From Desulfurivibrio alkaliphilus AHT 2 (GTDB lineage: Bacteria; Desulfobacterota; Desulfobulbia; Desulfobulbales; Desulfurivibrionaceae), in assembly GCF_000092205.1 (NCBI RefSeq), contig NC_014216.1, forward strand, positions 1,865,742 to 1,929,741: 64,000 nt of DNA, in the 5' to 3' direction. Numbering within the stretch: position 1 is the first letter of the stretch; every line of letters begins with the position of its first letter. Below the pieces are notes generated by a model. That model searched no databases. It was not told the origin of the DNA and worked only from the letters and a program-made list of their open reading frames with translations. Below are positions 20,401 through 25,268 of this stretch, in pieces. The position numbers and the translations under genes were made by a program.

Positions 20401-20666
20401 AGCTGGACGGATTGGCAAAAACCGCCGCCACCCGCGAGGCGGTGATCGACGCCGGATGCCGCCGTTTCCGCCCCATCCTGCTTACTTCGCTGACCACCTT
20501 CGGCGGCCTTTTCCCCATGATCCTGGAAACCAGCGTCCAGGCCCAGTTCCTGATTCCCATGGCCATCAGCCTGGGCTTCGGGGTACTCTTTTCCACCTTC
20601 ATCACCCTGGTGCTGGTCCCCACCCTGTACCTGGTGCTGGATGGAACGCGGCTACCTTCACAATAA
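17487..20666 (+). CDS. RND efflux transporter permease
   Basis: A 1059-aa inner-membrane proton-driven pump of the AcrB/HAE superfamily. The N-terminal helix is followed by FPEISLDRVNITVSYPGASP and EEVEEGI. Two sets of transmembrane helices flank large periplasmic loops. The central helix region GIVVDNSVVVGESIHEH carries the charged residues expected for proton relay, and the second half has FGIVALSGVVVNNSLLLIDRIN. A Gly-rich loop (GPGGGGGDSG) near residue 630 is unusual. Substrate is not readable; the heavy-metal CzcA subgroup is less likely than hydrophobic-compound pumps. The gene ends nine bases into the convergent exporter gene. Confidence 0.92.
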   Translation: MNNQIQWMAHNHVAATLLLLFFAVGGLVFAFNVKQEVFPEISLDRVNITVSYPGASPEEVEEGIILQIEESIAGIDGIKEMRATAAEGIGTVTAVVDTGADVDQVLQDIKNEVDRITTFPEDAEQPVVSKALIRNEVISVVVYGPTTERALRERAEMIRDDLLEMPEITQVELAGVRPYEISIEIEEEMLRRHHLTLEQVAAAVRRASQDTPGGVLKTEGGEILLRTKERRYTGPEHEEIVIRAGADGALLRLGEVATIRDGFEDIDLISRFNGQPAAMVEVYRVGEQRPIEISELVRRYVERQQPAVAGTVIDLALWNDNSEVLQSRFQLLLKNAAIGLLLVLLILSLFLEIKLALWIMLGLPVSFLGALLFLPSFDVSINMMSLFAFIMALGIVVDNSVVVGESIHEHRSRGKERLRAAVEGTREVAVPVVFSVLTTVAAFLPLVYITGTMGKFIRAIPFVVISILMVSLVISLFCLPALLGRRDHASPPGPGLIGRLKGLHRQADALLQRLINGPYRRTLEFCLTYRGLTLAAALALLMLAGGLVGGGLVQFRFMPEVEGDIIRVELEMPQGTLVEETARVEAFIVEQGQRTIAEFDARRDDGSTILRHLYSVIGGTAANEGPGGGGGDSGTHLATTTLFLQPAEKRGLPASEVSARWRELVGEIPGVRSLTFTTNLVRFGDHIDVQLSHHDFTTLLAARDRLQADLANYPGVYDIADNFPEGKRELTLRLKPEARSLGVTEEDLGRQVRSAFFGAEALRLQRGRNEVKVMVRYPEVQRRSLSDLEAMTIRTPDGGDIPLLQAAEVIDGRGYAAISRSDRKRAINVTASVDDRLANAEEVLAALRQGPLARLVADFPGLSYDLEGEEKERRESMGSMGQGFILALFAIYALLAVPLRSFAQPVLIMMAIPFGIVGALLGHLLLGFNLSILSMFGIVALSGVVVNNSLLLIDRINRNRRRQETRVDGPGELDGLAKTAATREAVIDAGCRRFRPILLTSLTTFGGLFPMILETSVQAQFLIPMAISLGFGVLFSTFITLVLVPTLYLVLDGTRLPSQ

Positions 20667-21218
20667 GGCGGAAACCAGCACCCAGAGGCCGATGGCGGCG
20701 AAGATCAGGGCGCTTAAGCGGTGCAGCAGGCGGGGGGAGATCCGGCAGCCGTAGCAGTGGCCGAACCAGACGGTGGGGGCGTTGACTACCATCATGCCGC
20801 TGACGCTGCCGGCCACCACCCAGAAAAAGGTGGAGTAATGGGCGGCCAGGGCGGCGGTGGCGATCTGGGTCTTGTCGCCCATCTCCATCAGGAAAAAAAG
20901 CACGAAGGTGGTAACGAAGGCCCCTTTGAGGGAGACCGGCGGCGCCTCCTCCTCGGCACTGTTACGTAACGCCCAGAGGGCCATGGCGAGAAACCCCAGG
21001 CCCACCAGCCAACTGATTACCTCCGCGGGCAGCAGGCGCGAAACCCAGACCCCGCCCACGGCGGCCAAGCCATGATTGGCCAGCGAGGCCAGAAAAATCC
21101 CGGCCAGCACCGGCCACGGCCGCTGGTAGCGGGCGCTCAGGGTCAGGGCGACAAACTGCGTTTTATCGCCGATTTCGGCCAGGGTAACGGCCACCAGCGC
21201 AATAAAAAAAACTTCCAT
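20658..21218 (-). CDS. Gdt1/UPF0016 family divalent cation (manganese) exporter
   Basis: A 186-aa membrane protein of about six to seven helices in two halves. Each half carries the family motif E-x-G-D-K-T (LAEIGDKTQFVALTLSARY near residue 15 and EMGDKTQIATAALAAHY near 112). Family members export Mn2+ or move Ca2+ in exchange for protons. Its Shine-Dalgarno overlaps the stop of the upstream UGA-containing gene, so it is probably the third gene of an operon with that gene and the ArsR regulator. Confidence 0.88.
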   Translation of the reverse strand: MEVFFIALVAVTLAEIGDKTQFVALTLSARYQRPWPVLAGIFLASLANHGLAAVGGVWVSRLLPAEVISWLVGLGFLAMALWALRNSAEEEAPPVSLKGAFVTTFVLFFLMEMGDKTQIATAALAAHYSTFFWVVAGSVSGMMVVNAPTVWFGHCYGCRISPRLLHRLSALIFAAIGLWVLVSALL

Positions 21219-21229
21219 ACCAGATCTTG

Positions 21230-21670
21230 CTACTCCTGTTGCCGCTTGGCCAGCAGGAAGGCGGCGCCGCTGGCCGACAGGCCCAGGGCGTCGGCCAGGG
21301 TGACGGCGTCGCTGTCCGGATGACGTTGCAGGAAGGCCGCCGCCTCTTCTTCCAGTTCATCGAGCCAGCTTTCAAAAAGCTTGAGGATGCCGGGCTCGGT
21401 CACCGCCTGCAACTGTTTTGAACGGGCCACTTTATGGACCAGACTCTGACACATGTTGGTTGGATCGACACCTTCGTCCAGGCAGCGGGCCAGTCAGAGG
21501 TTGACCATCCCCACCAGCTTGTCGTCGCCGTTGTCTCCCAGAAAGCGGGCCAGCCATTGCTGGCGTTCCTCGTCATCCAGGTGCCCCAAGGCCCCGCGCA
21601 CCGCCGGCAGCAGGGTCTGCAGAATTTCTTTGGGCTCCAGCTCGTCCAGCAGTTCCGTAAGCTCCCGCAT
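21230..21670 (-). CDS. Candidate new selenoprotein (146 aa, in-frame UGA at codon 59)
   Basis: The frame starts at ATG 21670, nine nt after AGGAG, and runs to TAG at 21230. It is broken only by TGA at 21494-21496, after residues DDKLVGMVNL. Beyond it the frame continues as a normal-looking helical, acidic protein (LARCLDEGVDPTNMCQSL..., SWLDELEEEAAAFL). Reading UGA as selenocysteine gives Sec59 with Cys63 (U-x3-C). A hairpin with loop AGGUG begins 14 nt after the UGA. The stop lies within the Shine-Dalgarno region of the next gene, as expected if the whole frame is translated. I do not recognise the family. A nonsense mutation remains possible but is less likely given two other UGA genes within 2.3 kb. 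Confidence 0.72.
21461..21496 (-). promoter_or_regulatory. Candidate bacterial SECIS element, small protein
   Basis: After UGA (21494-21496), TGGA-CGA pairs with TCG-A-TCCA with one bulged A. The apical loop is AGGTG, 21 nt after the UGA. GGU in a loop at this distance fits bacterial SECIS requirements. Confidence 0.6.
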
Positions 21671-21682
21671 ATATCAAGTCTC

Positions 21683-22027
21683 CTAGAAGGATGTGCGTCG
21701 GGCCAGCAAGTCGCCGGTTAGGGAATTCAGCTCATCCAGCAGCCCCTCCAGGCGGGGGTCGGCCAGGCGGCAGTAAACAAAAGGCCCGCGCCGCTCGACA
21801 CTGACCAGCAACGCCCGCCGCAGCTCTTTCAAATGGTGCGACACCAGGGGCTGGGAAATCCCCAGTTCCTCCACCAGTTTGGAGACCGGCTTTTCGGTGC
21901 CGACCAGGGCGCGCAGAATCCGCAAGCGGTTCTCGTCGGCCAGCCCCTTGAGCAACACCACCAGGTCCGCCGGGGTAACCGTTGCGGCCCCATCGCCGGG
22001 GGAATGATTTGAATTGCCGTTTTTCAC
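21683..22027 (-). CDS. ArsR-family transcriptional regulator
   Basis: A 114-aa winged-helix regulator. The DNA-binding helix-turn-helix reads KLVEELGISQPLVSHHLKELRRA, in its usual place, followed by the wing VSVERRGPFVYCRL. The ELCVCDL metal-binding motif of ArsR/SmtB is absent, so arsenic-type metal sensing through that site is unlikely. It is the first gene of an apparent operon with the small UGA-containing protein (13-nt gap, Shine-Dalgarno overlapping its stop) and the Gdt1-type exporter. It presumably regulates that operon. Its upstream region holds palindromic repeat copy 3. Confidence 0.88.
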   Translation of the reverse strand: MKNGNSNHSPGDGAATVTPADLVVLLKGLADENRLRILRALVGTEKPVSKLVEELGISQPLVSHHLKELRRALLVSVERRGPFVYCRLADPRLEGLLDELNSLTGDLLARRTSF

Positions 22028-22168: not shown

Positions 22169-22312
22169 GTTCACCAGGGGTACTAACTTACCAGTCTAAC
22201 GTGCCGTAATCGTTCAGCAGTGCCGCAGATTCGGGCGATCAGCCAGGCGCCGCGTACACTGGTACTCAAGCCTGGCTGATCGCCCGAAGGTGCGGTGCTG
22301 CTGAACGATTAC
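22169..22312 (-). repeat. Dispersed palindromic repeat, copy 3 (flank on left)
   Basis: The 107-bp palindrome 22206-22312 has outer arms GTAATCGTTCAGCAG and CTGCTGAACGATTAC, a TG/TG mismatch, and a perfect 19-bp inner stem starting TTCGGGCGATCAGCC. Its apex is GTACACTGGTAC. The flank 22169-22205 begins GTTCACCAGGGGTACTAAC. The right arm ends eight bases before the stop codon of the UGA-containing membrane protein. Confidence 0.9.
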
Positions 22313-22319
22313 CTAAAAA

Positions 22320-23426
22320 CTATGTTTGGCGGTACTTGAGCAGCACCAGGCCGTAAACCATGGCCATCAGCACGATGGAAAGATAGTTGGCCACCAGCAG
22401 CAGCTGATGGGCAAAGTAGGTGCCGTAGACGTATCCTCCCAGGACCTGGGAGCCGACCAGGGCTCAGACTATCCCCCACTGGGCCGGGGAGTATTTCTGC
22501 CGGCCGAACTTGCGGAAATAATCCGCAAGCAAATACAACCCGAACACAGCCCAGGCCACGGCGGCGGCGTAAGCGAAGTTGAGCACTAGAAACGAAGCCG
22601 GTTCGGCGGCAAACCCGAAATGGTTTTGCAGGTAGGCCATAATCCGAAACAGGCTGATACCGAAAAGGCAGAGGATGGGAATAACCAGAAAAAAGGCGGG
22701 CTGGATGGGATCGCCCGGCAACCGTTGGGCCTTGAGCTGGCCGTAGAGCAACACCACGATTTTCAACAGAAAGATAAAAATACCGGCCCCGATGGTAAAA
22801 AAGGCGGCAAAGGCAGCGGCCGCCGCCACCGCCGGGTCGGTGGCGATGGCGGCAATACCGCTGCCGGTAAGGCTTACCAGGCCGAAGGCAAAGATATCCA
22901 GCAACCAGGCAAAATTAAGCTTGCTCGGCTCCACCGGTTGGGTCAGCCAGATTTTCAGCACCTTGGCTTCAAACCCCAGCAGGGCCAGCCAAAGCAGAGC
23001 GAAGAAAAAAAGCGACGGCAGCATCAGCCCCTGCAGGGTGGCCCCCATGTTCGGCACAAAAAAGGCCAGCGGCCCCCAGACCACGTTGGCAGTCATGGCC
23101 AGCGAGGCGATGGGGGAAAAGATGGCGATATGGACTTTGGGGTCGTTGATAAAGGCGCTGAACTGCTCACGCTGGGCCATCATCCCGGCCAGCCCTTTAA
23201 GATAAAACAGGGTCAGTAGCAGGTGGATGACCACAAACAGCAGCATCACCCCCACCAGCGGGCCGTAGAAAAAGTTTTCCACGGCACTGAGCTGTTCCCA
23301 CGGCATGGCCGCCATGGTAATCAGCCCCTCGCCGTGCGGCACGGCAAATTGCAACAGCACGAAGGGCATCAACGCCGCCCCGCCGGCGGCCACGGAAATC
23401 TGGAACTGCAAGGGAGAAAACTTCAT
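22320..23426 (-). CDS. Membrane selenoprotein candidate (368 aa, Sec321), TsoY-like
   Basis: A polytopic membrane protein with about nine to ten hydrophobic helices. The frame from ATG 23426 (AAGGAAA upstream) meets TGA at 22464-22466 after KYSPAQWGIV, then continues for 47 more residues as a further membrane helix (LLLVANYLSIVLMAMVYGLV) ending KYRQT at TAG. Read as selenocysteine, this is Sec321. A perfect 5-bp stem UCCCA/UGGGA with loop GGUCC begins 13 nt after the UGA. It starts 11 nt after the DsrE-type selenoprotein gene, so the two form an operon. I recall the database name TsoY for Sec membrane proteins paired with DsrE proteins, but could not check it. Function is unknown; a thiol/sulfur redox role is inferred. 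Confidence 0.8.
22437..22466 (-). promoter_or_regulatory. Candidate bacterial SECIS element, membrane selenoprotein
   Basis: After UGA, TCCCA pairs with TGGGA around loop GGTCC, the loop starting 18 nt downstream. It resembles the GGUCU loop of the E. coli fdhF SECIS. Confidence 0.75.
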
Positions 23427-23437
23427 CGCTTTTCCTT

Positions 23438-23758
23438 TTAGAAGGTCAGGACTTTTTCACTTTCGGCAACCATTTGGTAAAGGTCGGTCATCATGCCCAA
23501 AGGACAGGAGGCTGATCCCGCCAGACCGCGGGATTTGATGCAGGTGCCTCAGACCAGGAAGTTGCCGCCCAAATTGTCGAATTCCGCCAACTGGCCGGAG
23601 ATATCGAACTGCTCACTGCTGATCTGTTCATACTCGACCCCCCGGCCCAGCATGAACATATTGACTTCCTTGCCTTGTTTCAGGCTGGCATTGGCCAGCC
23701 GGGCGGCGTTGAACACCGTTTCCGGGTCGTTGCTGGAAATAACGAACAACCAACTCAT
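23438..23758 (-). CDS. DsrE-family selenoprotein (106 aa, Sec70)
   Basis: A small DsrE-like sulfur-transfer protein. The start ATG 23758 follows GGAGG. The N-terminus WLFVISSNDPETVFNAARLA and MFMLGRGVE are DsrE fold elements. TGA at 23549-23551 is codon 70; reading through gives UGTCIKSRG followed by SCPLGMMTDLYQMV and a stop at 23438. In related DsrE proteins this position is a cysteine (CGTC), as I recall, so the change to Sec is conservative and would create a U-x2-C redox pair (Sec70/Cys73). The SECIS hairpin is the clearest of the three. It is the first gene of a pair with the membrane selenoprotein. Confidence 0.88.
23516..23551 (-). promoter_or_regulatory. Bacterial SECIS element in the DsrE gene
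   Basis: After UGA, TCCCGC pairs with GCGGGA (6 bp, perfect). The loop is GGTCTG, starting 22 nt downstream. GGUCU in the loop matches the known E. coli fdhF SECIS loop. Confidence 0.85.
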
Positions 23759-23957: not shown

Positions 23958-25079
23958 TTAATAGCCTCCGGCCAAGGGTGTCCGCGCCACTTCCACACCA
24001 CGATCCCGCACCAGCGGCAGGCGGGGGTTATTGCCCCAGATAATCCAACTGTCGTGATACACGGCCGGGTCGCTGAAGCCCAACAGGCGCAGAACGAAGT
24101 AGGACATGGAAGCCCGGTTGGCGATGTAGCAGTAAACGATGGTTCGCCGGTGGCGGTCCAAGTCGCCGTACATCGCGTCCAGTTCGGCAATGGGCTTGAG
24201 CCGCAGGCTTTCAAAATCGGCAAACTGCTGCCAGTGGGGCACGTTTGCTATGGTGTGGGGAATCCGGCCGGTGCGGATTACCGAATCGTAAAGAAAATGT
24301 CCCGGCGGGGCCGGCTGGGCGCCGGAGTGCTCCACATCCACCCGCACGTCAACCAGTTGCGGCAATTCAAACTGGTGCGGATTGACCCCGATATCCTGCA
24401 AATAGGATGGGTTGAAGCGGGCCAGCCGCAACACCTCGGCCTCGTGGGCGATCACTTGCGGCTGCAAGCGGGCCCGGAAGTCGGAAGGCGGCAGCCGGTT
24501 TTCTCCCTGCCCTAACGGCAGCCGGTGCGCCCACCAGTTTTCGATCCCGCCGTCCATTACCCGGACATCCTCATGCCCCAGGTATTCCAGGATGACAAAG
24601 GGAACAAAAGTGTAGCCCGGCAGGGTGTCTTCCAGGTCGCTGTAGAGAATTACGGTATGTTCACGGGTTACCCCGGCGGCGGCGAAAACCTGCTCCAGTT
24701 CCGCCACCGGCCGCGGCTCCAAGTGTTCGATCAACTTGCCCTGTTTGGGGTCGATATCTTGATCACCGTAAAAGAGAATATAGCGGTCCTCGCGCAACAT
24801 CTTGTGCCCCCGGTCGCCCAGGTGAATGGCGCCGGGCACATGCCCTTCAAGGTATGATTCCCGGTCCCGAAGGTCGATGATCAGCCAGTGCTCCCGGTTT
24901 TCCCACACCTCCAGGGGGGTGACCAGCAGATGGGGGTTGGCGCCGGGAGGAACAGATCCCCCGGCCCCGGCCGAGCCGGCGCAGAGCAGCACCAGCAGCA
25001 CGAAAAACGGCAGAGAAACCAATCCGGTCGCCAGCCAGCGACCACCTCTGCTTTTGGTAACAGTCGTAATTGTTTTCAT
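23958..25079 (-). CDS. Exported double-domain rhodanese-like protein
   Basis: A 373-aa sulfurtransferase-type protein. The start ATG 25079 follows GGAGG. An N-terminal signal or anchor (about residues 15-40, WLATGLVSLPFFVLLVLLCA) implies a periplasmic or membrane-bound location. Two rhodanese domains follow. In the first the active-site loop reads ILYSDLEDTLP without Cys, so it is probably inactive. The second has IVYCYIANRAS with a catalytic Cys. Rhodaneses transfer sulfane sulfur. The next genes downstream encode a DsrE and a membrane selenoprotein, so a sulfur-relay function is plausible but inferred. Confidence 0.87.
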   Translation of the reverse strand: MKTITTVTKSRGGRWLATGLVSLPFFVLLVLLCAGSAGAGGSVPPGANPHLLVTPLEVWENREHWLIIDLRDRESYLEGHVPGAIHLGDRGHKMLREDRYILFYGDQDIDPKQGKLIEHLEPRPVAELEQVFAAAGVTREHTVILYSDLEDTLPGYTFVPFVILEYLGHEDVRVMDGGIENWWAHRLPLGQGENRLPPSDFRARLQPQVIAHEAEVLRLARFNPSYLQDIGVNPHQFELPQLVDVRVDVEHSGAQPAPPGHFLYDSVIRTGRIPHTIANVPHWQQFADFESLRLKPIAELDAMYGDLDRHRRTIVYCYIANRASMSYFVLRLLGFSDPAVYHDSWIIWGNNPRLPLVRDRGVEVARTPLAGGY

Positions 25080-25234
25080 GGCCCACCTCCCTGTCTTGTT
25101 GGTTTGTCTTGCCATGCGGTCTTCGAGGCTTTTTGCGAACATGCCGCAACCCGGAGGTCGCATTACAGACCATCGGCAGCCCCTGAAACCTGCCCCACAA
25201 TTGGCGAGGGGCGGCCCCCCGTGCCGCCGATTGA

Positions 25235-25268
25235 ATGTATAAACGATCATACATATCAACAATGATAT
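25235..25268 (-). promoter_or_regulatory. Operator-like palindromes upstream of the rhodanese gene
   Basis: ATGTAT-N8-ATACAT (25235-25254) and ATATCA-ACAA-TGATAT (25253-25268) overlap. The region includes the 21-bp motif shared with 23902-23922. It lies between the rhodanese gene (minus) and the padR gene (plus), so PadR is a candidate binder, unproven. Confidence 0.5.

Follow-up and report, generated by a model that had tools for sequence, protein, structure and literature searches.

The Tso selenoproteins, listed in a 2026 review (PMC13188914) as TsoA, TsoB, TsoC, TsoX and TsoY, are credited there to Haft and Tolstoy 2025 (mSystems), Tso standing for three-selenoprotein operon. The same review treats DsrE-like selenoproteins with a UxxC motif as already known, and its model of the bacterial SECIS element (bSECIS) calls for a loop of 3-9 nt with a G in loop positions 1-2, an upper stem of at least 4 bp, a distance of 16-37 nt from the UGA, and a free energy no higher than -7.5 kcal/mol. 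The window studied here, a stretch of 64,000 nucleotides from Desulfurivibrio alkaliphilus AHT 2, contains a gene interrupted by UGA which an earlier note had put forward as a possible new selenoprotein family. Our results indicate that the gene is tsoA, a selenoprotein gene of the known TsoA family, and the sequence comparisons give a probability of about 0.93 that it is this gene with selenocysteine (Sec) inserted at UGA59. The read-through protein matches the NCBIfam model NF045695 ("LULAXC motif selenoprotein TsoA") with 186.9 bits (E = 2.4e-55) against a curated whole-protein cut-off of 170 bits, and the match spans residues 5-146, which correspond to model positions 2-143 of 144. Since this score exceeds the cut-off, the idea of a new family has to be given up: the family is already catalogued by NCBI and the window protein is a member of it. 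The LULAxC motif reads NLULARC here, U being UGA codon 59. Pfam matches to Arg_decarbox_C and TarS_linker were set aside, as they lie below the cut-off and occur in just one TsoA member each.

On the minus strand the frame of 146 codons runs from an ATG to a TAG with UGA59 as its sole interruption (Table 1), as the earlier note had read it; a plus-strand reading of the same interval found no support and was rejected. The 3' end reads CAG GAG TAG, the stop following directly on CAGGAG, so that a Shine-Dalgarno-like AGGAG lies within the last codons, 14 nt 5' of the ATG of a Gdt1-family gene. The host genome, which is complete (3,097,763 bases), encodes the Sec machinery that the selenoprotein reading calls for: SelA (632.6 bits), SelB (350.9 bits), SelD (384.2 bits) and tRNA-Sec (selC, 73.2 bits) are all above their cut-offs, and the gene for SelD itself carries an in-frame TGA. 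SelB would read UGA59 as selenocysteine, aided by a hairpin 14 nt downstream.

Table 1 Features of the tsoA cluster, in positions of the window
Feature	Position	Strand	Basis
Gdt1-family transporter, downstream of tsoA	20658..21218	-	PF01169, 155.7 bits
tsoA coding sequence, 146 codons, read through UGA59	21230..21670	-	Translation and NCBIfam NF045695
C-terminal helix-turn-helix domain (predicted), residues 92-146	21233..21397	-	Model helices, HTH_24 in relatives, PDB folds
Bacterial SECIS hairpin (putative), stem GGACGA/UCG-A-UCC, loop AGGUG	21462..21479	-	Codon conservation, covariation, RNAalifold consensus
Codon 63, invariant Cys of the U-x3-C motif	21482..21484	-	Invariant alignment column
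In-frame UGA, codon 59 (selenocysteine)	21494..21496	-	Translation; TGA in 52/52 canonical relatives
tsoR, ArsR/SmtB-type regulator, ends 12 nt upstream of tsoA	21683..22027	-	NF045707, 126.1 bits (cut-off 115); PF01022
tsoY, membrane selenoprotein, in-frame UGA at codon 321 (22466-22464)	22320..23426	-	NF047643, 490.5 bits (cut-off 250)
DsrE-like protein, in-frame UGA (23551-23549), UGTC motif	23438..23758	-	PF02635, 39.2 bits (cut-off 22.7)
Rhodanese-domain protein, likely exported, true start uncertain	23958..25262	-	PF00581, 71.2 bits

Relatives of the gene are widespread, with TsoA-like matches in 45 out of 395 genomes of the phylum and in 75 out of 258 genomes of the class. Every full-length match in the phylum sample has an internal TGA. 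With one exception, the full-length relatives carry a single in-frame TGA at the same place and a protein sequence that stays conserved past it, and codon 59 is TGA in all 52 distinct canonical relatives. The full-length relatives thus neither end at the UGA nor, apart from one copy with Arg, show an unrelated residue there. In a 44-member alignment the invariant residues are V56, U59, C63, G67, P70, F99 and W102, most of them positioned after the UGA; Sec59 and Cys63, proposed earlier as a U-x3-C pair, are both among them. Cys at the Sec site was sought across the 395 phylum and 258 class genomes, and none was found; the single deviation among the full-length matches is an AGA (Arg) codon in one copy (L114, 2446-2889, genome G504, contig 109), which keeps the hairpin, and a second copy in that genome (L115) has TGA. 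Either a Sec-less TsoA is tolerated or the AGA copy is decaying. Because no Cys homologue was seen, searches that depend on ordinary Cys/Sec pairs would miss the TsoA family. The reading of the sequence without tools did find a true selenoprotein gene.

The hairpin that the earlier note described, with loop AGGUG and beginning 14 nt after the UGA, recurs in the relatives and is conserved at the codon level, beyond what chance would give. In tsoA (GGACGA-AGGUG-UCGAUCC) its stem has 6 bp and a single bulged A. Among the 52 canonical genes, the hairpin codon GAA is fixed (52/52), GGT, which accounts for 14% of the Gly codons in the rest of these genes, is found in 51 of 52, and GTC is found in 51 of 51 against 29% elsewhere; other Glu, Gly and Val codons are used outside the hairpin in the same genes. 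The variable pair of the stem, the third, is formed by the second base of Asp/Gly codon 65 and the third base, a silent one, of the codon for Asp69, and over the 52 genes it is A-U in 23 (GAC with GAT), G-C in 27 (GGC with GAC), G-U in two (GGC with GAT), and A-C in none (GAC with GAC). This covariation gives a Fisher p of 8.5e-13, a statistic that ignores relatedness among the 52 genes; on the tree the pair changed about five independent times, which is not enough for significance in a test that takes the tree into account. The RNAalifold consensus is the same hairpin, and more distant TsoA members have other hairpins in roughly this position. The element agrees in shape with the bSECIS model (its loop, AGGUG, begins 20 nt past the UGA, and its 6-bp stem has a single bulge). 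However, the conserved hairpin alone is weak, at -5 to -6.1 kcal/mol (-6.1 in the window), short of the -7.5 of that model; a 48-nt fold at tsoA reaches -10.0 kcal/mol, but is paired otherwise. A scan of Rfam returned no match to a SECIS family, with sub-threshold hits only. That the UGA should be an ordinary stop, leaving a 58-residue protein followed either by a remnant or by an ORF of its own with 74 residues, or a sequencing error, could draw on the ATG which the downstream part has at codon 73 and on the one relative with AGA, but it is very improbable given that the UGA and the protein past it are kept across many genera, together with the codon-level conservation of the hairpin and the position of most invariant residues.

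The gene does not stand alone. tsoY has a strong 7-bp hairpin after its UGA, and in the DsrE-like gene, where the UGA stands within LVUGTC, it precedes a strong hairpin whose loop is GGUCUG. Since each of these two genes carries a strong hairpin after its UGA, the cluster, as read from its sequence, holds three selenoprotein genes: tsoA, tsoY and the DsrE-like gene. While the window protein itself shows no difference from TsoA, being a full-length match with the LULAxC motif and an adjoining TsoR, the genome differs in the company that it keeps: the best match to TsoB is 75 bits against a cut-off of 805, TsoX has no match, and neither has TsoC, though the search controls for the latter likewise gave none. 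TsoY and the DsrE-like selenoprotein are found near tsoA in place of TsoB/TsoC. Between tsoY and tsoR (22195-22318) lies a palindromic element of ~118 bp, with ~40 or more copies in the genome at 87-98% identity, which looks like a MITE or REP-type repeat.

What kind of protein TsoA is can be approached from its predicted architecture, an N-terminal helical region whose last helix would hold Sec59-x3-Cys63, followed by a C-terminal helix-turn-helix (HTH). An AlphaFold model built with 44 sequences has a mean pLDDT of 78; residues 41-90, with the Sec-x3-Cys helix, are mostly of low to middling confidence, and residues 92-146 are confidently modeled as a trihelical HTH (helices 93-116, 122-129 and 133-145). 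Pfam HTH_24 matches 16 out of the 44 members (best 3.5e-8), the window's own copy not being among them, and the structural matches of the C-terminal domain in the PDB are HTH folds with Z of 5-7. A Foldseek search with the whole TsoA model gave no match at E 0.001. From the model and the family matches, we conclude that the C-terminal third is an HTH domain. It resembles winged HTH domains (HTH_24, MarR_2, Lrp/AsnC, DeoR) in its three helices, but the chain stops at or just past the recognition helix, so that the wing is missing or very short. This fold, as modeled, need not mean DNA binding.

The most constant partner of tsoA is tsoR. The earlier note's ArsR-type regulator proved to be TsoR, scoring above the NF045707 cut-off; it is a protein distinct from TsoA, with only an HTH-type fold in common with the C-terminal part of the latter. 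In 68 out of 71 tsoA loci the gene is preceded, in the same orientation and mostly within ~50 nt, by a TsoR-like gene, and the three others begin at a contig end (L094), have an overlapping TsoR-like match (L096), or contain a marginal TsoA match (L103). Because tsoA follows tsoR directly and in the same orientation, their products are probably made together. TsoR has no conserved Cys column, and 22 of the 68 TsoR proteins lack Cys altogether. The Gdt1 exporter noted earlier is indeed present, but among the loci examined it stands beside tsoA only in the present window; thus it says little about function, and we reject it as a functional partner of TsoA.

A further group of relatives is shorter. 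Three of them (L098, 4004-4306; L099, 3930-4238; L101, 3763-4071) share the U-x3-C motif MVERUMQMC. Their N-termini are rich in Met, each has its own strong hairpin, and the genes that they adjoin were recognized by eye as SHOCT-like and TVP38-like. With the TsoA model L099 scores 59.5 bits, far below the cut-off, and the group is possibly an undescribed one of selenoproteins. In L095, another short relative, Met occupies the Sec column as well as the Cys column, as read by eye; a search for further Met/Met relatives yielded the same 45 genomes and no other clear case. These short Met-rich relatives, the C-terminal HTH, the presence of TsoR upstream in nearly all loci, and the Cys-poor nature of TsoR are what the present analysis adds to the description of the family.

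TsoA may have a metal or redox role, in line with the earlier suggestion of metal or redox stress. As a tentative proposal drawn from the sequences, TsoA might sense or signal in some form: a soft metal(loid) or a reactive sulfur species would bind to or react with the Sec/Cys pair, a signal that TsoA would relay to TsoR or DNA. TsoA is cast as the giver of the signal because TsoR itself has no conserved Cys to sense with. The constant pairing with a Cys-poor ArsR-type TsoR, together with the HTH and the soft-ligand motif, favors this role and suggests that TsoA is a selenol-bearing sensing partner of TsoR. A stricter version, in which TsoR is a Cys-poor repressor that depends on the HTH-bearing TsoA as the other half of a split regulator, with the Sec-x3-Cys helix as sensor, we regard as distinctly unlikely.

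About equally likely as the sensing partner is a selenol/thiol redox or sulfur-transfer protein of a persulfide or sulfite pathway, in which the HTH-like part would be a mere scaffold. The neighbors fit such a non-regulatory, sulfur-handling protein: rhodanese-like genes stand beside tsoA in 19 loci and genes for DsbD-like membrane proteins in 18, DsrE-like proteins are encoded near it in other loci (all three named by eye), and TsoX, with its motif HSGNPxUxxC, occurs beside it in several. Also, TsoY in the window bears a weak resemblance to SLAC1 channels/exporters, with a match that stays below the Pfam cut-off. However, none of these genes accompanies tsoA nearly as constantly as tsoR does, and the Met/Met relative and the short Met-rich relatives suit metal binding better than redox chemistry. 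Those same Met-rich relatives lend some weight to a third, doubtful idea, that TsoA binds or buffers a soft metal or metalloid (of the Cu, Hg, As or Cd type) beside its ArsR repressor and has no direct regulatory role. An ArsR-type neighbor in nearly all loci would agree with this, as would the i, i+4 spacing of U and C on the predicted helix and the HMA-domain ATPase-like, ArsP-like permease and DGC-domain-like genes nearby, recognized by eye and not by family search. Nevertheless, Met/Met is one clear case only, and the LULAxC group itself sits among sulfur genes.

Returning to TsoA as the sensing partner of TsoR, the idea has a consequence for what selenocysteine does. If it is true, selenocysteine would serve gene regulation and not enzymes alone, and if the split-regulator version were to hold, TsoA and TsoR would form a selenocysteine-based transcriptional sensor.
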